64,000 nucleotides of DNA from Bacteroidales bacterium. Lineage in GTDB: Bacteria > Bacteroidota > Bacteroidia > Bacteroidales > Bacteroidaceae. This document shows positions 22,213-63,093 of this stretch, one piece after another. The stretch is taken from assembly GCA_015060905.1 (NCBI GenBank), contig SUXQ01000003.1, forward strand, positions 1 to 64,000. Reading direction: 5' to 3'. The notes below the pieces were generated by a model. That model ran no database searches, was not told the DNA's origin, and saw only the letters and a program-made list of their open reading frames with translations. The position numbers were made by a program, and so were the translations under genes. Positions within the stretch are counted from its first letter, which is position 1, and every line of letters begins with the position of its first letter.

Positions 22213-22384
22213 ACTCTTCTTTTTTATAGTAGAGACAAAAGCTATGCAAATTCTCACAAAATAAAGCATAAAAAAATGGCATATTAATAAAATTCTACAA
22301 AGAAGAATCTCATCAAATATTTATTACGCTTTTCTATAATCTAAATTTTCGAAGTAAGGATTTTGCATAAAAACAGTGTCTCGA

Positions 22385-22660
22385 CCCTCACAATTCCCCG
22401 ATGAGCACAAATAATAAAAAAGTGTGGGAACTTATTGCTTTATCCTAAAGTCGGGTCTTCGCATTACCCTTGGAATAGATAAAGCAATAGCCCACACCTA
22501 AATATTACATCTTTCGTACGGACAAACGACCGCACGTATGGATATAACAACTGATGTGGTGCTATCGCACAATCTTCATTCCAAGTTCATTCTGCGAAGT
22601 TTGACTTTAGAAGATTATTTCAACAACACCTTTTACAAATATGTCTGTCCCCGAAGCCAT
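22385..22660 (-). ncRNA. Putative structured RNA, copy A
   Basis: A gene-free segment related to 49642-49905. On the minus strand it contains, in order: a 5' hairpin (AATCTTC with GAAGATT), the word TCAGTTGTTATAT, a stem CGTGCGG/CCGTACG (one G-U pair on this strand but A-C on the other), a long arm GTGTGGG-C-TATTGCTTTATC (22478-22497) paired with 22422-22444, and an apical GGGT/ACCC. Then come TTTTTT and a 21-base tail (22385-22405) identical to copy B. Compensatory changes against copy B support the fold. Its promoter is at 22677-22705, and the product would be about 255-290 nt. It could be an independent RNA or a leader of the gene at 21661. I do not recognise the family. Confidence 0.6.
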
Positions 22661-22676
22661 CGCTCTAAGAACAGTA

Positions 22677-22705
22677 CAAAAATAGTACAAAATATTTTAG
22701 TACAA
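22677..22705 (-). promoter_or_regulatory. Promoter of structured RNA copy A
   Basis: On the minus strand, TTG (22703-22705), an 18-base spacer and TATTTTTG (22677-22684) precede the RNA. The spacing is identical to the promoter of copy B. Confidence 0.55.
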
Positions 22706-22825: not shown

Positions 22826-24700
22826 TTACTTTTCCATTTCTTCCTCGACCAGACGAATCTTCTTTAGAATTACTTCAGCATCGGATTTTAATTTTTCAAC
22901 CTTCTGATACATTACATCCACAAGGTTCGCTCCTTTTTTATTGGATGCACTAAGAAATCCGAGGTTATTCTCATAAGTCTTTATTTCAACCTTCATCGAC
23001 TCGTATTGACGAATAAGGCGGTCGCGCTCACGGCTGAGGTTGTCACCATTCTTGGCAATATTGCTGCGGAATTCCGAGAGTTTACGTTCATTTGCACTTA
23101 TCTGCAATCTTTCGTAAATTGCATCAAGAGTCTGCTTGTACTCTTTGTAAAGCTTATCTTTATCTTTGAAAGGCACGTGTCCCACCTTGCTCCACTCTTT
23201 TGTAAGCTTCGACACAGCAGCCTCTTGCTCCTCGGCGGGAGAGGTTGCATCTATTGCCTTGAGGCTTTCAATAACTGCGCGTTTCTGCTTAAGATTCTCA
23301 AGTTCTACAGCACGTTGCGACGATGTTGCCTTGTTGCGACGCTCAAAAAAGTAGTCACATGCGCCGATGAATCTTTTCCACAGAGCATCGGAATATTTCT
23401 GAGGGATTGCGCCTATTCCCCTCCACTCTTTCTGCAAAGCCGAGAGTTTTTCGGCAGTCTCTTTCCAATCCTCGCTCTCTTTAAGTTGCTCGGCCGCCTC
23501 GCACAACTGACGTTTATGCTCAAGATTCTCGGCAAGCGAAGCTTTTACATTCTTGAAAAACTCGCTCTTGCGTTTGAAAAACTCGTCGCACGCTGCGCGG
23601 AAACGCTCAAAGATTTTCAAATTCATCTTTTGCGGCGCAAAGCCTATTTCTTTCCATTTTGCCTGAAGGTCGAGCACCTCTTGAGTCTTGTCGCTCCACG
23701 CCTGATAGCTTGTTAGCTCGTCAAAAGAAATCTGCTCGATAGCCTCGCAAATGGCAGTCTTATTTTCAAGATTTTCACGCTCTTTTTCCTTTTTCTCCTC
23801 GAAGTGAGCCTGATGGCGTTTGTTTATAGCCGTAGAAGCAGCCTTGAAGCGCGCCCATACTTCCTCGCGCAATTCGGGAGAGACGGGACCCGCATCGCGG
23901 AACTCAACGTGCAACTGCTGCAACTGACGCGAAGCAGATACAATATCTTTTTCCTCGAGCAAAGCCTCGGCCGCGTCGCATATTCTTGCCTTAATCTCAA
24001 AATTCTTTTTAAAGTCATACTCGCGGAACTCAATATTCAGTTTCAACATGTCGTAGAACTGCTCCACAAGTTGCTGATACTGTTTCCACAGGTCGTTCAC
24101 CTTATCTTGAGGAACATTTTTTATCTCTTTCCAACGAGCCTGCAATGCCTTAAAGTCATTTACTGCCGGAGAGCCTTGTTCGGCCTTGGCTACCATTTCT
24201 TTAAGTTCCTCAATAACAGACAGTTTCGCCTCGTAATTGGCCTGTTGCTCGGCCGCCTGTTGTTGCAACCATGCGCTGCGTTTCTCTTTAATTACGTTCA
24301 TCGCATCCTTGAACTCACCCTCGAGAGTATCATTCTCGGGTACAAATACAGCCGCATCGCCACCCTCGGCAATGAATTCTTTACGAGCATTGTCAATCTC
24401 TATGCTTCTGAGCTTGTAGAACTGAACTTTAAGCATTTCAACCTCGGCCTTGCTGTTAAGCACATCCTCGCCGGCGGCAATAGCCTGCAGACGCTCTATT
24501 ATTTCGCGACGCGTAACCTGCTTCGCCTGAGAATTTACTTCAGACACACTATCGTCGGGAATAATTTCCTCGGTTACTTCACTTGTTGCATCTGTAACAA
24601 CTGCAACTTTTTCATTCGTAGCGGCATTCACAGCCTGTTCAGTAGTACTCGCAATGTTCTGCTCATTGAGCATTGCATCCGGTTTTAATGTTTCACTCAT
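22826..24700 (-). CDS. DUF349 domain protein (long coiled-coil repeats)
   Basis: A 624-residue cytoplasmic protein. The first 80 residues are acidic and low-complexity. From about 110 onward come at least five DUF349 repeats of about 70 residues, each with the signature 'W K E I G . (V/A) P' (for example ARWKEIKNVPQDKVNDLWKQ, AKWKEIGFAPQKM, EWRGIGAIPQKY and EWSKVGHVPFKDKDKLYKEY). The C-terminus ends in a further coiled coil. DUF349 proteins are common in Bacteroidetes and Actinobacteria, and no biochemical role is firmly known. High helix content suggests a scaffold. It has its own promoter and terminator. Confidence 0.9.
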   Translation of the reverse strand: MSETLKPDAMLNEQNIASTTEQAVNAATNEKVAVVTDATSEVTEEIIPDDSVSEVNSQAKQVTRREIIERLQAIAAGEDVLNSKAEVEMLKVQFYKLRSIEIDNARKEFIAEGGDAAVFVPENDTLEGEFKDAMNVIKEKRSAWLQQQAAEQQANYEAKLSVIEELKEMVAKAEQGSPAVNDFKALQARWKEIKNVPQDKVNDLWKQYQQLVEQFYDMLKLNIEFREYDFKKNFEIKARICDAAEALLEEKDIVSASRQLQQLHVEFRDAGPVSPELREEVWARFKAASTAINKRHQAHFEEKKEKERENLENKTAICEAIEQISFDELTSYQAWSDKTQEVLDLQAKWKEIGFAPQKMNLKIFERFRAACDEFFKRKSEFFKNVKASLAENLEHKRQLCEAAEQLKESEDWKETAEKLSALQKEWRGIGAIPQKYSDALWKRFIGACDYFFERRNKATSSQRAVELENLKQKRAVIESLKAIDATSPAEEQEAAVSKLTKEWSKVGHVPFKDKDKLYKEYKQTLDAIYERLQISANERKLSEFRSNIAKNGDNLSRERDRLIRQYESMKVEIKTYENNLGFLSASNKKGANLVDVMYQKVEKLKSDAEVILKKIRLVEEEMEK

Positions 24701-48004: not shown

Positions 48005-49624
48005 TTACAATCTCACTTTCACAGCCTTGTCACCTACGCAAATGATATAAACGCCCTTGTCGAGAGTAATCTCCTCGCCCGCGTAGCTGTCGATTTTCTC
48101 AACAAGCGCACCGGCGGTGGTGTAAACAGCAACAGTCTTGCCCTCGGCATCAGTCAGTTGAATACCACCGGCAGCAACTTTAATTACAGGAGCATCCTCC
48201 TCATCCGCAACATCCTCTATGGCTGTGGGGTCAAATTCCACGATATTTTTAAAAATTTTCCAACCGTTAGCAGTCTTATATGTTTCTATCGCCCCCTGCG
48301 GAACGTATAAAGTTATATCTAAGTTATCAAAATAATAACTAAAAGAATAAACATCAACGTTTGCCGGAGTTGCACTTAATACATAGATGCTTGTAAGGTT
48401 ATGGCAAGCTTGGAATATATAATTCCCTATTTCTGTCACGCTGTTAGGTATTGTAATACTTGTAAGGCCGTCACAACCATAGAATGCATATCCTCCTATG
48501 CTTGTCACGCTATTGGGGATTGTCACACTTGTAAGACCGTCGCAATTTTGGAATACAGATTCTTCTATGCTTGTCACGCTATTAGGTATTGTAATACTTG
48601 TAAGACTGTCGCAAGCATTAAATGCATATCCTTCTATACTTGTCACACTATTAGGAATTTTAATATTTGTAAGAGCGGTACAATATGTAAAAGCTGCCCA
48701 TCCAATGTGTGTCACACTGTTGGGGATATTAATGTTAGTAAGACTTGTTTGAGCGCCAAACGCAGCCTTACCTATACATGTAATACTGTTGGGAATAATT
48801 GTATTTTTGCAACCTTGTATAAGTGTATTTGTTGCAGTTTCTATTATTGCATTGCAATTCTCACGAGAATCATATACACTGTTGCCACCTTCTACGACAA
48901 TGTTTGTAAGTCCGGCGCAACCGTAGAATGCATATTCTCCTATGTTTGTCACGCTATTGGGGATTGTCACACTTGTAAGACCGTCGCAAAAATAGAACGC
49001 ATATTCTCTTATGTTTGTCACGCTGTTAGGGATTTCAATATTTGTAAGACCTGCGCAACCACTAAATGCATTCATTGCTATTGTTGTAACACTGTTAGGA
49101 ATAGCTGTATTTTTGCAACCATTAACTAATGTGTTTGTTGCAGTTTCTATTATTGCATTGCAATTCTCGCGAGAATCATAAACTGTATTACCGGGTTCAA
49201 CAACTATACTTGCAAGTGAAGTGCAACCTGTAAATATAATATCCGTATTAGAAATAAAGGTCGGGCCTATACTTGTCACGCTGTTAGGAATAGTAATACT
49301 TCTAAGGCTGCTACATTCAGCGAACGCACAAAATCCTATACTTGTCACACTATTAGGTATTGTAATACTTGTAAGGCCGTCACAACCGTAGAATGCATAT
49401 TCTCCTATGCTTGTCACGCTATAAGTCTTTTCATCATATACTACAGTTGAGGGAACAACAATTTCTCCACTATATTTCCCTAAACGGTCTGTTACTTCTA
49501 CAGTAAATTCCGTTCCCGAGGTTACTTTGTAATAAATTCCATTTACCTCAAAGGCACTCACAGTTACGCTGCATAGTAGTGCAACCACTGCCACCAGCAT
49601 TTGTTTAATGTAAAATTTTCGCAT
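48005..49624 (-). CDS. BspA-type leucine-rich-repeat surface protein with T9SS-like C-terminal domain
   Basis: The ATG at 49624 (MRKFYIKQMLVAVVALLCSV) places a signal peptide at the start, giving 539 residues. After a short beta-domain, about 12 LRR_5/BspA units of about 23 residues run from 60 to 430 (consensus [21 protein letters not shown]). Two are interrupted by a longer block beginning VVEPGNTVYDSRENCNAI or VVEGGNSVYDSRENCNAI. Residues from about 460 are a different domain ending KGVYIICVGDKAVKVRL, which matches the style of T9SS sorting domains (terminal KxVKVxV). It is therefore a likely surface adhesin exported by the system whose parts (PorQ, SprA) lie nearby. The sorting role is inferred. 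Confidence 0.88.
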   Translation of the reverse strand: MRKFYIKQMLVAVVALLCSVTVSAFEVNGIYYKVTSGTEFTVEVTDRLGKYSGEIVVPSTVVYDEKTYSVTSIGEYAFYGCDGLTSITIPNSVTSIGFCAFAECSSLRSITIPNSVTSIGPTFISNTDIIFTGCTSLASIVVEPGNTVYDSRENCNAIIETATNTLVNGCKNTAIPNSVTTIAMNAFSGCAGLTNIEIPNSVTNIREYAFYFCDGLTSVTIPNSVTNIGEYAFYGCAGLTNIVVEGGNSVYDSRENCNAIIETATNTLIQGCKNTIIPNSITCIGKAAFGAQTSLTNINIPNSVTHIGWAAFTYCTALTNIKIPNSVTSIEGYAFNACDSLTSITIPNSVTSIEESVFQNCDGLTSVTIPNSVTSIGGYAFYGCDGLTSITIPNSVTEIGNYIFQACHNLTSIYVLSATPANVDVYSFSYYFDNLDITLYVPQGAIETYKTANGWKIFKNIVEFDPTAIEDVADEEDAPVIKVAAGGIQLTDAEGKTVAVYTTAGALVEKIDSYAGEEITLDKGVYIICVGDKAVKVRL

Positions 49625-49641
49625 ATAATATGTATTTCTTG

Positions 49642-49905
49642 CCCTCACAATTCCCCGATGAGTGCGGATAAAAAAAAAGAGACGTGGGAACTATTGTTAA
49701 TTACGACGTTGAGGCTCTGGACTGCCCATCTTCAAGTAACAAACAATAGCCCACGCCAAATGTATATATAGTCCACCCGAGTGGGTGTATATATAACACT
49801 GACGTGAGCACCTTGCTTAATATCCTTGAAGATTGAAATTGTCCAGATTTCAACGACGGATATGTAACAAAACGCTCTATAAAATATGTTCTTCCGGCAT
49901 ATACA
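49642..49905 (-). ncRNA. Putative structured RNA, copy B
   Basis: Related to copy A (22385-22660). On the minus strand come: a hairpin TTGAAAT/ATTTCAA, the word TCAGTGTTATAT, a hairpin TATATATA...CCAC/GTGG...ATATATA, and a long arm CGTGGG-C-TATTGTT (49742-49755) paired with AACAATA-GTT-CCCACG (49683-49698). An apical GGC/GCC caps the arm, followed by a run of nine T and the 21-base tail at 49642-49662 identical to copy A. Compensatory pairs (T-A to C-G, C-G to T-A) distinguish the two arms. The RNA would start near 49916 and be about 245-275 nt. The BspA-like ATG follows the tail by about 20 bases, so it could also act as a leader. Confidence 0.6.
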
Positions 49906-49921
49906 ATGCGTGGAATTGCCG

Positions 49922-49950
49922 CGAAGGTACAAAAAAAAGCGTTTGTTCAA
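49922..49950 (-). promoter_or_regulatory. Promoter of structured RNA copy B
   Basis: On the minus strand, TTG (49948-49950), an 18-base spacer and TACCTTCG (49922-49929) give the same spacing as for copy A. A second -7 box TATCTTTG is at 49996-50003. Confidence 0.55.
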
Positions 49951-55719: not shown

Positions 55720-58700
55720 ATGAATTTCCGTACGCTTATAACAATCATTCTGCTGTGTGCATGCACCATAGGGCTGTATGCACAGGAAGATAATAAGCGT
55801 ACCGTGCGTCGCAGCAACAGAGTAAGGCGCACAAAAGTAGAACAAAAGGACAGTGTCCCGGCGCGTTACCCCATAGGAAACGTCATTCCCGAGAGCGAAA
55901 AAGACCTGAAAAAGCTACCGTTGGACCTGCGCAACCCCGACAACATAAAACAAGACACAACATACAACGACAAAGACAGCACATACAGCATTGCCACAAA
56001 GATGGGAAACAGCATCTTGGGCACCCCCTTTATTTTGTCGCAGGAGGAGTATGCTAAAAACAAGATGCAAAATTCATTGCACCGTTACTTCAAGAAAAAG
56101 AATCAAGAAGAATTCGACAAAATGAATAACGGCGACAAGTTCGACTTCAGCGACATGAAATTCGACCTCGGCCCTGCCGAAAAACTGTTCGGTCCGGGTG
56201 GCGTGCGCATAAAGACACAAGGAAGTGCCGAAATGAAATTCGGTCTTCAGATGCAGACTGTAGACAACCCCTCGTTGCCACAGCGCAGCCGCGAAACAAA
56301 AAGTTTCAATTTCGACGAAATAATAAACCTCAACGTCAAGGGTAACGTAGGCGACAAGATGAACCTCGACTTCAATTATAATACCGAGGCGACATTCAAC
56401 TACGACACAAAAAAAATCAGTCTGAAATACGAAGGAAAAGAGGATGAAGTATTCAAACTGATAGAAGCCGGAAATATATCATTCGGAACAAATTCGTCGC
56501 TGATAAAAGGCGCAACCTCACTCTTCGGTATACGCACAGACATGCAATTTGGCAAGTTGTCGCTGCAAGCTGTTGTATCGCAAAAAAATTCAAGCTCGAC
56601 AGTTGTAAACTCAAAAGGCGGCACACAACTGACTACATTTGAAATTGACGTTGCCAACTACGACGAGAACAGACATTTTTTCCTCGCCCACTACTTCCGC
56701 GACAATTACGATAAGTCTATGGCGCAACTGCCAACCATCGTATCGGGAATAACAATCAACCGCATAGAAGTGTGGGTGACCAATAAAAAAAGCGATTTTA
56801 CAAACCCACGTAACATTGTAGCGTTCACCGACCTTGGAGAGTCGTCACACATAAGCAATAATATGTGGAGCGCATCAAGCGGAAACACCCTGCCCGCCAA
56901 TAGCGCAAACAACCTCTACGCCACAATGAACAACGGTTACACCGAAATTCGCGACATTGACCGGGTAAATGCCACATTCAGTGGAATATACGGATTCAAC
57001 GGCGGACTCGACTATGAAAAATTATCAAACGCCAGACTACTATCATCATCAGAATACACCGTAAACAGACAGTTAGGTTACATTTCGCTGCGCAACGCCC
57101 TACGAGCCGACGAAGTGCTTGCCGTAGCATATGAATATACATACGGCGGAACAACTTATCAAGTGGGAGAATTTTCCTCGGACCAAAAAGAGTCATCCAC
57201 TACGCTTATGGTAAAGTTGTTGAAGCCAAACTCATGCTCGCCGCAAAACGGCTGCTGGGACCTGATGATGAAAAACGTATATAGCCTGGGCGCAAGAAGT
57301 CTGAAAAGCACAGACTTCAAGCTGGACATATACTATGCAAGCGACAGTCTGGGAACAAACATCACCTATCTTCCCGAGGAAAATTTGAAAGACACCCCGC
57401 TGTTGAGAATAATGAACCTCGACCGTCTCGATGCAAACAACTCGAAAGAGGCCCCCAACGGCATCTTTGACTACGTTGAAGGCTTTACGGTACAATCATC
57501 CTCGGGACGAATCTTCTTCCCGACAGTAGAACCTTTCGGCAGCAACCTTTATAAAAAGATAGGCAACAAAAAAACAGCCGAAAAATATGTTTACCAAGAG
57601 CTGTACGACTCGACAAAAACCGTCGCCAAACAGCTTGCCGAAAAAGATAAATTTTATCTTATCGGAGAATATACCGGTTCGTCGGCAAACGTCATACAGA
57701 CAGGCTCGATGAACATCCCCAAAGGCTCGGTAACAGTAACCGCCGGCGGAGTTATACTCACAGAGAACAGCGACTATACAGTAGACTACGCCGCAGGTAT
57801 TGTAACCATCGTAAACCAAAGTATAGTAGACGCCGGAACCCCCGTAGAAGTGTCGCTCGAGAGCAACACCCTATTCAACATGCAGCGCAAGACAATGCTC
57901 GGCCTTAATTGGCAATACAACTGCTCGGACTACCTTACTTTGGGCGGAACAATAATGTCGCTTACCGAAAAACCGCTAACCTCAAAGGTAGACATGGGCT
58001 CGGAGCCGTTGAACAACCTTATCTGGGGAGTAAACCTCTCGTGGAAAAGACAATCCCAATGGCTCACAACCTTCCTCGACCGTCTGCCGCTACTAAGCTG
58101 TTCGGCACCATCAAGCATAAACCTGACAGCAGAATTTGCCAAACTGAATGCAGGAACATCCGACGAACTGCAAAGTAACGCATCGTACATCGACGACTTT
58201 GAAAGTACCGAAAATGGAATCGACCTTGACGCGCCATCAGCGTGGGTATTATCATCAATTCCCACAGGCATGGCAAACTATGGCCTTACAAACAATATAC
58301 TCACCGGATACGACCGCGCACTTATAAATTGGTACACCATAGACCCGCTATTCACACGTCGCAGTTCGTCACTCACCCCCTCGCACATAAAAAGCGACCT
58401 CGACCAACTGTCCAACCACTATCTGCGCGAAGTGTACGAGCGCGAACTTTACCCAAACAAAGAATCCACATACGGCGAGTCGTCCACACTGTCGCTGATG
58501 AACGTCAGCTACTACCCCGACGAACGTGGCCCCTACAACCTCGACCCCGACCTTACATTCGACGGTAAGCTCAACGCCCCCGAAAAGCGTTGGGGAGGAA
58601 TCACACGCCAACTGACAACCACAGACTTCGAGACAGCCAATGTACAATACATTGAATTTTGGCTGCTCGACCCCTTTATCTATAATGACGCAGATGGCGG

Positions 58701-61700
58701 CGGCGACTTTTACATAAACTTAGGCGAAGTATCCGAAGACATTCTGAAAGACGGAAAAAAATTCTTCGAGAACGGCCTTCCCGCCGGCAGCAACAACTAC
58801 GGCTACGAAGAGACCGTATGGGGACGTGTACCCTTAACCTCGAGCCTTGTTTACGCATTTGACAACAATGCCGGCAGCCGCACACAGCAAGATATTGGTC
58901 TAAACGGACTCACGGGCAACGACGAAGCAACATTCCCCACATACGCCAACTATCTTAACACGATACGCGGCAAAGTACGCAGCGAAGTATACGACAGCAT
59001 CGCCGCCGACCCCGCCAACGACAACTACCACCACTATCGCGGCTCGGACTACGACGACGCACAACGCAACATCTTCGAACGATACAAATACTACAACAAC
59101 CCCGAAGGAAACTCGGCAACAACATCGGCATCAAACGAAAGCTACAATACATCGGCAAAAACCACGCCCGATATTGAAGATGCCAACCAAGATTTTACAA
59201 TGGACGAATATGAAAACTTCTTCCAATATAAAATCTCACTCCGTCCACAAGACATGCAAGTTGGTCTCAACTACATTTCGGACAAACGCACCGTCACAGC
59301 CAAACTGCGCAACGGCAGCACAGAAAGCGTCGATTGGTACAAATTCCGCATACCCATAGACGACTACGAAAAAGTAGTGGGAACCATACGCGACTTTACC
59401 TCGATACGCTTCATGCGCATGTACCTTACAAACTTCAAGAAACCCGTCACACTGCGTTTCGCCACATTGAAACTCGTACGCGGCGACTGGCGTCCCTACA
59501 TGAACGCAATAGCATCGACAAACAACACCTCGCCCACCGTCAGTGGCGAACTTATAATGTCGGCTGTAAACATCGAAGAGCATGGCGACCGCCAGCCTGT
59601 AAACTACGTGCTTCCCCCGGGAGTCACACGTATATTAGACCCCGAGCAACCACAGTTGAGACAGGACAACGAACAAGCACTGTCGCTACAAGTCAATAAT
59701 CTTGGAGCAAAAGAGTCGCGCGCCGTCTACAAAAAAAGCACAATAGACATACGACAATACGAAAGGATTCAAGTATTTGCACACGCCGAAGCCCCGGTAA
59801 TAGACGGTACAATTCTTGCCGACAACGACGTATCGCTATTTGTAAGAATGGGCTCGGACTACAAAAGCAACTACTACGAATACGAAATTCCACTGAAACT
59901 GACCCCTCATGGCACCTACGACGCATACAGCACTTCGGCAGGTGAAACCGTATGGCCTACAGAAAACATGCTCGACATTCCGCTGAACAAACTGACAGGC
60001 CTTAAAGTCAAACGCAACACACTAAGAAATGCCAATGCTGCGGGAGTAAACAACACAACCATATATAGCGAATATGACGAAGAAAACCCAAAGAACAAAA
60101 TAAGCGTCATTGGTAACCCCTCATTAGGACAAGTAAAAGTAATGATGATAGGTGTACGCAACAACACCGGAACACCAAAATCGGCCATCGTGTGGGTAAA
60201 CGAAATGCGCATGCTGGGCTTTAACAACAAGAGCGGTTGGGCAGCACAAGGCAATCTGAACGTAAAACTTTCGGACCTCGGAAGCATCGCCGCACAAGGA
60301 AAAGTAGAAACAGCCGGATTCGGCGGGCTCGAGGACAAACTCGCAGCACGTCGCAAGGACAATTACTACAAATACTCCGTAACAGGAACCTTCGACTTTG
60401 GACGATTCTTCCCCAAAAAGACAAAAATAGCACTGCCACTATACTACTCAATATCGCAAGAGGTAAAATCGCCACTTTACAGTCCCTTCGAGACAGACCT
60501 TCTCTTTGACGACGTACTCGACTCTTACAGCGGAGCCGCACAAGACTCCATACGCGATATTGCCGAGGTAAAGTCCACCACACGCAACTTCAGTGTAAGC
60601 AACGCCAAAATAGGCATCGCAAGCAAAAAGCCCATGCCCTACGACCCCGCAAACTTCACATTCGGATTCTCACATTCGCGCACCGACAACAGCGGAAGCA
60701 CCATCAGTTGGGAAAATCGTCTCAACTGGAAAGCTACCGCCGCATACGCATACACCAACCCCATAAAGACAATAAATCCGTTCAAAAACATCAAGAGTAA
60801 GTCAAAATGGTGGAACGTTGTAAAAGAGTGGGGAATAAACCCGCTGCCACAAAGCCTGTCGCTTAACACAGACATGACACGTACATACTACGAACGACAG
60901 ACACGCGACCTTAGCAACACATACAACCAGACGGCAACCCCGCTTAACTTCTCGCAACAATTCTATTGGAACCGCAACATGACGCTTAAATGGGACCCCA
61001 CAACCAATCTGCGCATGAACCTCACCACCGGAACAAATGCCGAAATTGAAGAGCCCTATATGCCGGTAAACAAAAGTCGTTACCCCGATGAATACTCCAT
61101 TTGGAAAGACTCGGTAATGCACAGCATCAGGAATTTGGGACGTCCGCTCAGCTACCAACAAAGTTTCACAGCATCGTATACCCTGCCGATAAACAAACTG
61201 CCAATATTCGAGTGGGTAACAACAAGTGCAAACTTCGCATCATCGTACAATTGGGCACGAGGAAACAGTTCATCGGGAGTAAACTTCGGCAACACCATAG
61301 CCAACAAACGTACAATAACACTCAACGGCAGCTTCAACCTCGAGAAATTGTATAACATGTTCCCCTATCTTGAAGAGACAAACAAGCGTTTCGCCAGCGG
61401 AGCAGCCGCAAAAAACAAAAAGATAAAAGAACAAAAAGCAGCAAAAATAAAACCCTTCAAGACAGAAATAACACTGCGCGCCGACACAGTGCTACCCCTC
61501 GCGCACGGACTAAAAAGCAAAAAACTTGTAATAAACGCCCGCACCAAAAAAGGACGCCCCTACAAACTTAAATACAAAGTTGTAGACGAGAATACCATCC
61601 TTATAAAAAACAAAGACACCCTGCCCTTGAAACTGACAATTACCCCAAAGGTAAAGAGCGAAACTACAGATTTTATGAAGAGGATGCAGTACCCCACACG

Positions 61701-63093
61701 TTTCCTTATGATGCTACGCAGCATGTCAGTTACCTATTCAAACAACTACTCAATGTCGTTGCCGGGATTCATGCCTAATGTGGGCGATGCGCTCGGACAG
61801 AATAAGATGGGTGGCTCATATGCTCCGGGACTTGACTTTGCCTTCGGCCTTACAGACGACAGCTATCTGCGTCGCGCCTACGACAAAGGATGGTTGTTGT
61901 GCAGCGACAGTGTAGCGGTGCAAGCCTCATCGAGTGCCGCCGAAAATCTTCAGATGAAATTTATTCTGGAGCCGCTAACAGACGTCAAAATAGACCTCAA
62001 CGCCGATTGGTCGAGAAACAGCAGCCGCAACATACAGTATATGTACGCAGGAATGCCCGAGACACAGTCGGGAGGATTCTCAATGACCACTATCACCATA
62101 GGAAATTCATTCGACGTAGGCAGCGAAAGCAACAATTACAAATCGTCCACATTCAACAAATTTGTAGACAACCTTGAAGGCATAAGGCAGCGCATGGAAG
62201 ATAGATACACAGGCACTTTGTACCCACAGAACAGCAGCCTTGCCGGACAAACATTCAACCCCGAGAATGGAACGATAAACAAATACTCGGCAGAAGTGAT
62301 GATTCCCGCCTTCCTAAACACATATACGGGACGCGACGGAAAGAACAGCCTGACAGACCTGTTCCCCTCGTTCCTGCACATGCTACCCAACTGGAATATA
62401 AAATATGCGGGACTGTCGAAACTTCCGATGTTCCAGAAACACTTCAAGAGCGTAAATGTTACTCACGGCTATAAGAGTGTCTATGCAATAGGCTCGTACA
62501 GCACTTACTCTACCTATATGGAGTACACCAACGGGCTGGGCTACATTAATAACACAAGCACAGGCCTGCCCGTGCCAAGCAGCAAATACAACATAAGCAC
62601 AGCTTCGATAAATGAATCATTCTCGCCGTTGCTGGGCGTGGATGTTACCACAAACAACAACATTACGTTAGGTGTTAAATATGTAAAATCGCGCGTACTT
62701 AACCTGAGCGTGACAGCTATACAGTTGGTCGAGACACACTCGAAAGAACTTGTATTCAATACAGGTTACAAGATTGTCAATCTTAAATTGCTGGGCGCAA
62801 GCAGCAAGGCCGACAAGAGCAATAAGGTAAGCAACGACCTTAACCTGAGAGCAGCATTCTCGTTCAAGAACATGACCTCTTTGTGTCGCAGCATCGACAA
62901 GGGGACTACACAAGCAACAAGCGGCAATGAATCGTTCAACTACTCACTGTCGGCCGACTATACATACAGTAAAATGCTGAATATGAGCCTGTTCTTTGAA
63001 CGCAAAAAGACTATTCCGTTAATTTCGGCAAGTTCATACCCCACAACAACCACCGACTTTGGCGTGAGTCTTAAATTCTCATTGACAAAATAG
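55720..63093 (+). CDS. sprA: T9SS translocon protein SprA (Sov)
   Basis: A 2457-residue outer-membrane protein with a signal peptide (hydrophobic 5-20, ending LYAQE). The size fits SprA of Flavobacterium and Sov of Porphyromonas (about 2400-2500 residues), which form the large 36-strand barrel through which cargo crosses the outer membrane. Conserved-looking regions include FDLGPAEKLFGPGGVRIKTQ near 150-170, the SYIDDFESTENGIDL segment near 825, NEMRMLGFNNKSGWAAQGN near 1500, and many alternating amphipathic strands toward the C-terminal FGVSLKFSLTK. The frame is intact over 7.4 kb. Codon use is like the neighbours. It is one base downstream of ruvA and one base upstream of the DUF456 gene. 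Confidence 0.96.
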   Translation: MNFRTLITIILLCACTIGLYAQEDNKRTVRRSNRVRRTKVEQKDSVPARYPIGNVIPESEKDLKKLPLDLRNPDNIKQDTTYNDKDSTYSIATKMGNSILGTPFILSQEEYAKNKMQNSLHRYFKKKNQEEFDKMNNGDKFDFSDMKFDLGPAEKLFGPGGVRIKTQGSAEMKFGLQMQTVDNPSLPQRSRETKSFNFDEIINLNVKGNVGDKMNLDFNYNTEATFNYDTKKISLKYEGKEDEVFKLIEAGNISFGTNSSLIKGATSLFGIRTDMQFGKLSLQAVVSQKNSSSTVVNSKGGTQLTTFEIDVANYDENRHFFLAHYFRDNYDKSMAQLPTIVSGITINRIEVWVTNKKSDFTNPRNIVAFTDLGESSHISNNMWSASSGNTLPANSANNLYATMNNGYTEIRDIDRVNATFSGIYGFNGGLDYEKLSNARLLSSSEYTVNRQLGYISLRNALRADEVLAVAYEYTYGGTTYQVGEFSSDQKESSTTLMVKLLKPNSCSPQNGCWDLMMKNVYSLGARSLKSTDFKLDIYYASDSLGTNITYLPEENLKDTPLLRIMNLDRLDANNSKEAPNGIFDYVEGFTVQSSSGRIFFPTVEPFGSNLYKKIGNKKTAEKYVYQELYDSTKTVAKQLAEKDKFYLIGEYTGSSANVIQTGSMNIPKGSVTVTAGGVILTENSDYTVDYAAGIVTIVNQSIVDAGTPVEVSLESNTLFNMQRKTMLGLNWQYNCSDYLTLGGTIMSLTEKPLTSKVDMGSEPLNNLIWGVNLSWKRQSQWLTTFLDRLPLLSCSAPSSINLTAEFAKLNAGTSDELQSNASYIDDFESTENGIDLDAPSAWVLSSIPTGMANYGLTNNILTGYDRALINWYTIDPLFTRRSSSLTPSHIKSDLDQLSNHYLREVYERELYPNKESTYGESSTLSLMNVSYYPDERGPYNLDPDLTFDGKLNAPEKRWGGITRQLTTTDFETANVQYIEFWLLDPFIYNDADGGGDFYINLGEVSEDILKDGKKFFENGLPAGSNNYGYEETVWGRVPLTSSLVYAFDNNAGSRTQQDIGLNGLTGNDEATFPTYANYLNTIRGKVRSEVYDSIAADPANDNYHHYRGSDYDDAQRNIFERYKYYNNPEGNSATTSASNESYNTSAKTTPDIEDANQDFTMDEYENFFQYKISLRPQDMQVGLNYISDKRTVTAKLRNGSTESVDWYKFRIPIDDYEKVVGTIRDFTSIRFMRMYLTNFKKPVTLRFATLKLVRGDWRPYMNAIASTNNTSPTVSGELIMSAVNIEEHGDRQPVNYVLPPGVTRILDPEQPQLRQDNEQALSLQVNNLGAKESRAVYKKSTIDIRQYERIQVFAHAEAPVIDGTILADNDVSLFVRMGSDYKSNYYEYEIPLKLTPHGTYDAYSTSAGETVWPTENMLDIPLNKLTGLKVKRNTLRNANAAGVNNTTIYSEYDEENPKNKISVIGNPSLGQVKVMMIGVRNNTGTPKSAIVWVNEMRMLGFNNKSGWAAQGNLNVKLSDLGSIAAQGKVETAGFGGLEDKLAARRKDNYYKYSVTGTFDFGRFFPKKTKIALPLYYSISQEVKSPLYSPFETDLLFDDVLDSYSGAAQDSIRDIAEVKSTTRNFSVSNAKIGIASKKPMPYDPANFTFGFSHSRTDNSGSTISWENRLNWKATAAYAYTNPIKTINPFKNIKSKSKWWNVVKEWGINPLPQSLSLNTDMTRTYYERQTRDLSNTYNQTATPLNFSQQFYWNRNMTLKWDPTTNLRMNLTTGTNAEIEEPYMPVNKSRYPDEYSIWKDSVMHSIRNLGRPLSYQQSFTASYTLPINKLPIFEWVTTSANFASSYNWARGNSSSGVNFGNTIANKRTITLNGSFNLEKLYNMFPYLEETNKRFASGAAAKNKKIKEQKAAKIKPFKTEITLRADTVLPLAHGLKSKKLVINARTKKGRPYKLKYKVVDENTILIKNKDTLPLKLTITPKVKSETTDFMKRMQYPTRFLMMLRSMSVTYSNNYSMSLPGFMPNVGDALGQNKMGGSYAPGLDFAFGLTDDSYLRRAYDKGWLLCSDSVAVQASSSAAENLQMKFILEPLTDVKIDLNADWSRNSSRNIQYMYAGMPETQSGGFSMTTITIGNSFDVGSESNNYKSSTFNKFVDNLEGIRQRMEDRYTGTLYPQNSSLAGQTFNPENGTINKYSAEVMIPAFLNTYTGRDGKNSLTDLFPSFLHMLPNWNIKYAGLSKLPMFQKHFKSVNVTHGYKSVYAIGSYSTYSTYMEYTNGLGYINNTSTGLPVPSSKYNISTASINESFSPLLGVDVTTNNNITLGVKYVKSRVLNLSVTAIQLVETHSKELVFNTGYKIVNLKLLGASSKADKSNKVSNDLNLRAAFSFKNMTSLCRSIDKGTTQATSGNESFNYSLSADYTYSKMLNMSLFFERKKTIPLISASSYPTTTTDFGVSLKFSLTK

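Follow-up and report, generated by a model that had tools for sequence, protein, structure and literature searches.

What is the structured RNA that occurs twice on the minus strand of the window, the stretch of 64,000 nucleotides of a Bacteroidales contig that was analysed here, and what does it do? An earlier note on this DNA had described a promoter-bearing RNA outside the known families. Both copies do have a promoter-like start, a GTTATAT word, a long arm (GTGGG..TATTG against CAATA..CCCAC), an apical hairpin, a T-run and a common tail, all seen in the sequence, and the compensatory changes that had been named between the copies are visible. Folding, the promoter motif and the Rfam scans support that description. 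Beyond it, we describe the element as a 5' leader with two mutually exclusive pairings, which is common in the window's bacterial family.

The RNA and its relatives

The element has a size of about 290 nt (Table 1). On the minus strand, copy A has a folding z of -7.6 and copy B of -4.8, and for neither copy did any of 200 shuffles match this stability. Folding of the copy A plus strand is weaker (z -4.1).

Table 1. Parts of the two window copies and the frames behind them (window positions).
Feature	Copy	Position	Strand	Partner or basis
Whole element	A	22380..22679	-	R1 covariance model match, 184.6 bits
Whole element	B	49637..49924	-	R1 covariance model match, 278 bits
Promoter -7 element (TATTTTTG within ACTATTTTTG)	A	22677..22686	-	motif
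Promoter -7 element (GTACCTTCG, TAnnTTTG variant)	B	49922..49930	-	sequence
5' hairpin H1	A	22647..22672	-	predicted fold and sequence
5' hairpin H1	B	49892..49917	-	by eye; inner part alone in predicted fold
P2 5' strand	B	49868..49877	-	partner 49806-49815; P2 paired in 933/1006 cells (leans upwards, see text)
P4 loop CTTCGCA	A	22593..22599	-	complements TGCGAAG 22457-22463
P4 hairpin	B	49833..49853	-	loop CTGGAC 49841-49846 complements GTCCAG 49717-49722
X2 strand	A	22577..22585	-	partner Y2 22469-22477; per-copy pairing test
X2 strand	B	49825..49833	-	partner Y2 49728-49736; copy-specific sequence
Strand F (CCACATC)	A	22553..22559	-	upstream partner of strand M
Strand F (TCACGTC)	B	49801..49807	-	upstream partner of strand M
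Strand M (GGTGTGGG)	A	22491..22498	-	common to both rival pairings
Strand M (GGCGTGGG)	B	49750..49757	-	common to both rival pairings
Apical hairpin GGGTAATGCGAAGACCC	A	22453..22469	-	sequence
Apical hairpin GGGCAGTCCAGAGCC	B	49713..49727	-	sequence
Strand T (GTTCCCACACT)	A	22421..22431	-	downstream partner of M
Strand T (GTTCCCACGTC)	B	49681..49691	-	downstream partner of M; GTTCCC 49686-49691 is the tail-loop pseudoknot partner
T-run	A	22408..22421	-	immediately 3' of M:T
T-run	B	49666..49680	-	immediately 3' of M:T
Tail hairpin	A	22383..22408	-	loop GGGGAAT at 22393-22399
Tail hairpin	B	49641..49665	-	loop GGGGAAT 49650-49656 pairs with GTTCCC
14-codon frame behind the element	A	22324..22368	-	start resembles LRR gene starts (by eye, alignment)
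Gene behind the element: BspA-type leucine-rich-repeat protein, 539 aa, ATG at 49624	B	48005..49624	-	LRR_5, E 4.7e-85

Known RNA families were ruled out by Rfam scans. At the curated cut-offs of Rfam 15, neither copy has a match, as the earlier note had expected. A permissive scan gave none for copy B. For copy A, it gave two implausible matches near E=1, one to a ciliate snoRNA and the other, the better one, to a Listeria sRNA (E 0.95, far below its cut-off). In 16 further loci (E<=0.1), no match lies over the RNA; the only match to a Bacteroides RNA, BTnc060, adjoins the leader and does not overlap it. This sRNA (RF04184; L051:1966-2180, minus strand) is located about 180 nt upstream of the leader copy, on the same strand. 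The stated absence of 6S RNA, tmRNA, RNase P and SRP RNA agrees with the lack of Rfam matches, and ARAGORN found no tmRNA in the window.

The covariance model R1 was built from 15 sequences and has M:T, P2 and the tail stem in its structure. Searches with it returned further homologues, which keep their stems by compensatory change; differences that destroy the stems had been named as one outcome that would speak against the RNA. With 150 of 936 first-look candidates scored, R1 matches the window's genome 15 times at E<=0.001. Nine of these matches exceed 180 bits; among the six weaker ones, some are partial. The supposed multi-copy family is thus confirmed and is far larger than the two copies from which it had been proposed. 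A 19-base stretch of the tail occurs nine times in this genome (with up to 3 mismatches). A chance repeat in two copies is rejected by these tail recurrences, by the 15 matches in the own genome and by the matches throughout the family.

In a sample of the bacterial family (Bacteroidaceae), at least 166 of 301 genomes have a match (E<=0.001), and in a sample of the order (Bacteroidales) at least 47 of 295 (E<=1e-6). Both counts are lower bounds because the filters were strict and about six candidates were scored per genome. The phylum sample, which doubles as a negative control for the E-values, had a match in one of 247 genomes, the window's own. When 13 genomes were searched more deeply, each had 2-10 matches (E<=1e-5). 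A pattern search of named genomes led to six loci: four from Bacteroidaceae and one from Alistipes, all five of water buffalo gut origin, and one from Bacteroidales of roe deer. In contrast to the whole element, the tail word is not widely kept: a search for the tail pattern in 151 family genomes (1 mismatch) returned the own genome and one match each in two others (L010, L011), where the rest of the element is absent by eye.

For the comparisons below, 58 stretches were taken from the better-scoring matches of the family sample, together with two longer flanks. With the earlier loci, this gave 100 sources and 101 matches, 100 of them distinct. The copies counted are thus better-scoring matches and no random sample. 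From the order sample, 29 loci added 28 further matches, one of them a duplicate. One locus of this sample was missed by the search (L138), and the element is visible there by eye.

Several genomic arrangements were observed in passing. Two copies are found in tandem on the same strand, about 200 nt apart (G257:C1:1619726-1620447). Several matches from the order sample and the deeper searches are close to contig ends (a few hundred bases at most), which is typical of repeats in draft assemblies. Two equal-scoring copies of one complete genome (L120 and L121) are located in 4.9-kb segments that are 96% identical, which suggests duplication of the leader together with its surroundings.

Position relative to promoters and genes

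In 67 of 100 copies, the motif TAnnTTTG, which we take to be the -7 promoter element of Bacteroidetes, begins no more than 15 nt from the model start, compared to 1.4% in a control from the same loci. At the other end, 84 of 100 copies have the start of a reading frame no more than 60 nt past the model end; among control points, this holds for 396 of 1980 (20%). With a stricter choice, a frame of at least 60 codons is found there in 77 copies, and the distance from the model end to the start codon is 10-14 nt in 48 copies. Judged by this arrangement in the sequence, the RNA is a cis-acting mRNA 5' leader on the same strand as the frame that follows. The 21-base tail had been noted as identical in the two window copies. 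It is indeed common to both and is, in fact, a conserved hairpin that adjoins the start codon of the next gene.

The genes behind the leader are diverse. Among their 77 proteins, 31 Pfam families occur, the commonest being LRR_5 (BspA-type; 15 proteins), and 17 of the 25 families listed have a single member. No shared pathway is apparent, so no ligand is suggested. A crude signal-peptide/lipobox rule assigns 51 of the 77 proteins to export, compared to 36 of 125 other frames (Fisher p 2e-7); this rule is ad hoc, and the background consists of predicted other frames in the same loci. None of the 77 directly downstream proteins matches a PADLOC model of defence proteins (E<=0.0001). An RNA of a retron or defence system was rejected, as neither a reverse transcriptase nor a defence protein is encoded directly behind (77 proteins, PADLOC).

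Within the window's genome, LRR-type genes follow eight of the nine strong copies (by eye, and by Pfam for copy B). Copy A is not directly followed by an intact gene and lacks the leader arrangement; the 14-codon frame found there is, from its sequence, probably a gene remnant. Because this frame begins like LRR genes, copy A may be the leader of a decayed gene. Short frames differ between six own-genome copies, and that of copy B is not kept elsewhere (by eye, n=6). Judged by these six copies, attenuation by an upstream peptide (such as Bacteroid-trp) looks unlikely.

Two other genes of the window are worth mentioning. The gene upstream of copy A (22829-24700, minus strand) has five DUF349 stretches, and a strong palindrome 3' of it (GGCGCCGAACA..TGTTCGGCGCC) looks like its terminator. 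The window that codes for the LRR surface protein also codes for a 2457-aa protein with a SprA_N domain (55720-63090, plus strand), presumably the outer-membrane translocon of type IX secretion.

Two exclusive pairings and further contacts

Strand M has the consensus GGYGUGGG. In the alignment, 688 of 701 cells (98%) are paired between M and strand F, which lies upstream, and 797 of 804 cells (99%) between M and the downstream strand T; M:T, P2 and the tail stem belong to the R1 structure fitted by the alignment, so that their counts lean upwards. F:M, the contact between the loops (kissing loop), X1:Y1, X2:Y2 and the tail pseudoknot are outside this structure. For several helices pooled, all of 500 shuffles stay below the observed values for pairing and for covariation, and pairing falls to 41-51% when the partner is slid by 1-3 columns. 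Since M pairs with F and also with T, it can join one or the other, not both. The long arm reported previously for the window copies does pair, and its pairing is kept across 100 distinct copies; its base, however, is only one of the two competing pairings.

The main G-C/A-U swap (48:48 at one M position) coincides with a division into two subtypes and may represent few events. Further events were sought for this reason. All three strands have changed together in L073 (F/M/T are CAUGCU/AGCAUG/CAUGCU), in L143 (CACGGA/UCCGUG/CACGGA) and in L082, L087 and L092 (CGCGUC/GGCGCG/CGCGCC). An F partner matching six of six bases within 93 nt 5' of M is present in 119 of 125 copies and absent in the other six. 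If strands are exchanged among copies that differ in M, 55% have such a partner, a control value that is high because G-U pairs are allowed and the position is free.

Directly after M:T, 95 of 100 copies have at least seven T in 12 nt (4.7% expected), and A or C frequently interrupts these T-runs. A simple terminator scan, which considers only loops of 3-8 nt, far shorter than that of M:T, found none at copy A or copy B. In nearest-neighbour calculations that leave pseudoknots uncounted, the forced F:M fold beats the forced M:T fold in 93 of 99 copies, by a mean of 11 kcal/mol. As energies favour F:M, termination would need kinetics or a factor. With two exclusive helices that have one strand in common, one of them ending in a T-run, the element has, judged by sequence and covariation, the layout of an attenuator.

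The two halves of the RNA are joined by additional contacts. The core of the apical loop was recognised in 90 of 101 rows (the pattern dropped 11), and its exact complement is present in the P4 region in 85 of these 90. The loop-loop types are GUCCAG, GUCGAG, GUCUAG and UGCGA; the complement is absent in L004. The strands X and Y were compared copy by copy, with 16 of 100 rows dropped as they have no recognised loop pair. X2 has a mean score of 17.8 with its own Y2, compared to 8.4 with the Y2 of other copies (n=84), and the own Y2 is best or tied in 64 of the 84. For X1:Y1, tighter windows give 16.8 (own) versus 9.9 (others), the own partner being best or tied in 42 of 84, while wider windows leave a weak signal (13.4 versus 12.1). 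By column, 76% of X1:Y1 cells are paired, and the shuffles reaching the observed values are 0 of 500 for pairing and covariation score, 31 of 500 for pair types and 455 of 500 for pair changes on both sides. X2:Y2 is absent in L012. Column counts are low for the kissing loop (369/592) and for X2:Y2 (401/869), which we attribute to an alignment that does not line up the variable parts; therefore, the per-copy tests were relied on. In the MAFFT alignment, the rod pairs of the two subtypes are likewise out of register. Together, the long-range helices form a single nested rod, and the minimum-energy structure predicted for copies A and B is this same rod.

The two hairpins of the element resemble each other: in window 49681-49877 (minus strand) and its homologues, strands a and c are alike, as are b and d (by eye). 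It looks as if the RNA had originated by internal duplication of one hairpin.

The stem of the tail hairpin covaries and is paired in 90.8% of cells, a count that likewise leans upwards. Its loop pairs with GUUCCC just above strand T, forming a pseudoknot, which was analysed in 126 copies (one distinct order-sample row was dropped, and the pattern may have misplaced a few order-sample words). The word beside T can be GUACCC, GCUUCC, GAACCC, GUUACC, GUUUCC or CAAUCCC, among others. A non-canonical word is present in 53 copies. Of these, 35 find a strong partner in their own tail (score >=14), compared to 10.8% for the tails of other copies; such a partner is absent in the remaining 18. The tail pairing is absent in L101, L112 and L119. 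The linker between strand T and the tail varies widely in length (by eye).

We consider it somewhat probable, judging from the sequence comparisons, that the element is a 5' leader acting in cis as a strand-exchange attenuator of the gene behind it. In a rod state, M would pair with the upstream strand F, while X1:Y1, X2:Y2 and the loop-loop contact would join both halves. The word GUUCCC beside T would then be free to pair with the loop of the tail hairpin (GGGAAC). In a two-hairpin state, P2, P3 and P4 would form on one side, and M:T would act as a terminator, a GC-rich stem with a T-run immediately after it. How often the polymerase reads through into the surface or accessory gene would depend on the balance of the two states. 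The rod would allow read-through and the hairpins would cause termination; transcription, termination and the sign of control are part of this proposal rather than observations.

That a conserved tail hairpin comes after the putative terminator is unexpected if the leader attenuates transcription alone, and this arrangement would suit translational control as well. Such control, with the T-run as a flexible linker and with the tail hairpin and its pseudoknot opening or closing the start region before the AUG, is a possible, less probable reading. It gains from the covariation of the tail stem and of the tail loop with the word beside T, from the start codons close behind the model end and from the variable linker. 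A T-rich stretch that follows a GC-rich M:T in nearly all copies, however, exceeds what a linker needs, and L143, L101, L112 and L119 have kept M:T and T-run despite being devoid of a tail partner.

The own promoter motif, the terminator-like end and the very high structure are also what would be expected of a small RNA of about 250-290 nt that acts mainly in trans and ends at the T-run, with the gene being expressed by leak; the copy-specific X/Y segments could serve as guides. This is quite unlikely, as a conserved tail hairpin follows the T-run and forms pairs with the body of the element, and the open frame close by in most copies would be superfluous for a free RNA. We regard an explanation at the level of DNA as very improbable. 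The repeat would then be a mobile palindrome or a site of recombination between paralogous genes for surface proteins, and templated correction of a quasi-palindrome would have produced the covariation. Its many copies, the matches near contig ends and the duplicated 4.9-kb segments would suit this, whereas G-U pairs are used freely as in RNA (UG 68 at one F:M pair), copy A folds better on the minus strand, the direction is consistent relative to promoter motif and gene, and four queries have no match in plasmid, phage and viral collections (a 901-base query for plasmids, a 321-base query for phages, two patterns for viral contigs).

The preferred reading, a cis-acting attenuator, could be extended to a Bacteroidales-wide leader class in which each copy has a private X1:Y1/X2:Y2 code, complementary within the copy and made different between sister copies of one genome. 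Leaders could then work side by side without cross-talk, perhaps with the terminated leader acting on its own gene in trans. We consider this extension rather doubtful. Sister copies of one genome that differ by less than 10% elsewhere differ by 33% in X/Y (six pairs, five of them from the window's genome and thus non-independent), compared to 10.6% for copies from different genomes at the same distance, where five of eight pairs are nearly identical in X/Y. At a distance of 10-20%, the contrast fades (38% within genomes, three pairs; 33% between genomes, 134 pairs). The close pairs, a small sample, hint at selection for different codes among sister leaders. Two between-genome pairs (L036/L045 and L057/L060) have identical X/Y segments before different genes, which speaks against a gene-specific code.

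Significance and comparison with known systems

If the attenuator reading holds, a class of regulatory RNA with matches in over half of the family genomes sampled (166/301) is missing from Rfam 15, and a set of surface and accessory genes would be linked to one signal. The leader would also be a natural example of an RNA with two folds supported by evolution, and the switch is directly testable with base changes already made by nature.

6S RNA, tmRNA, RNase P RNA and SRP RNA are structured RNAs of similar size. The Bacteroidales leader differs from them in having many copies per genome, located before genes, and in having no Rfam match. The c-di-GMP riboswitches, whose classes are represented in Rfam, occur in many copies per genome before surface and accessory genes. 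In this respect they are alike; the Bacteroidales leader is, however, much larger and has no Rfam match.

Among the top-ranked titles of our literature searches, none describes this leader family. We therefore call it new to Rfam 15 and not found in the literature searched, and make no wider claim. Other structured RNAs of Bacteroidetes that were found by comparison are Bacteroidales-1, Bacteroides-1, Bacteroides-2 and GUCCY-hairpin (Weinberg 2010, PMC2864571). In that paper, the first two have Rfam numbers, and neither gave a match to the Bacteroidales leader here. Bacteroides-2, found in one sequenced organism, and GUCCY-hairpin are given there without such a number and hence are outside the Rfam comparison made here. 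A set of 3161 candidate RNAs has been reported for human microbiomes (Fremin and Bhatt 2021, PMC8040213). The Bacteroidetes examples for which the accessible text gives lengths have 40-132 bp, and these candidates could contain fragments of the leader family. In B. thetaiotaomicron, 13.5% of mRNAs have a 5' UTR longer than 100 nt, and about 2% of these long 5' UTRs are predicted to hold a riboswitch, according to PMC7366714. If the present reading is correct, the leader might explain some of the long leaders in gut Bacteroides.

The closest likeness in layout that we describe is with riboswitches and leaders that attenuate transcription, strand-exchange purine riboswitches being one example (B. 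subtilis yxjA; PMC9756952). Attenuators of this kind are also 5' leaders, with one strand common to the antiterminator-like and terminator-like helices, a T-run and a gene downstream. The Bacteroidales leader had no match outside the window's order in the phylum sample, and the genes behind it are mostly unrelated to each other. It also differs from these attenuators in its length of about 290 nt, in the covariation of the helices of both folds, and in a tail hairpin that pairs back across the T-run.
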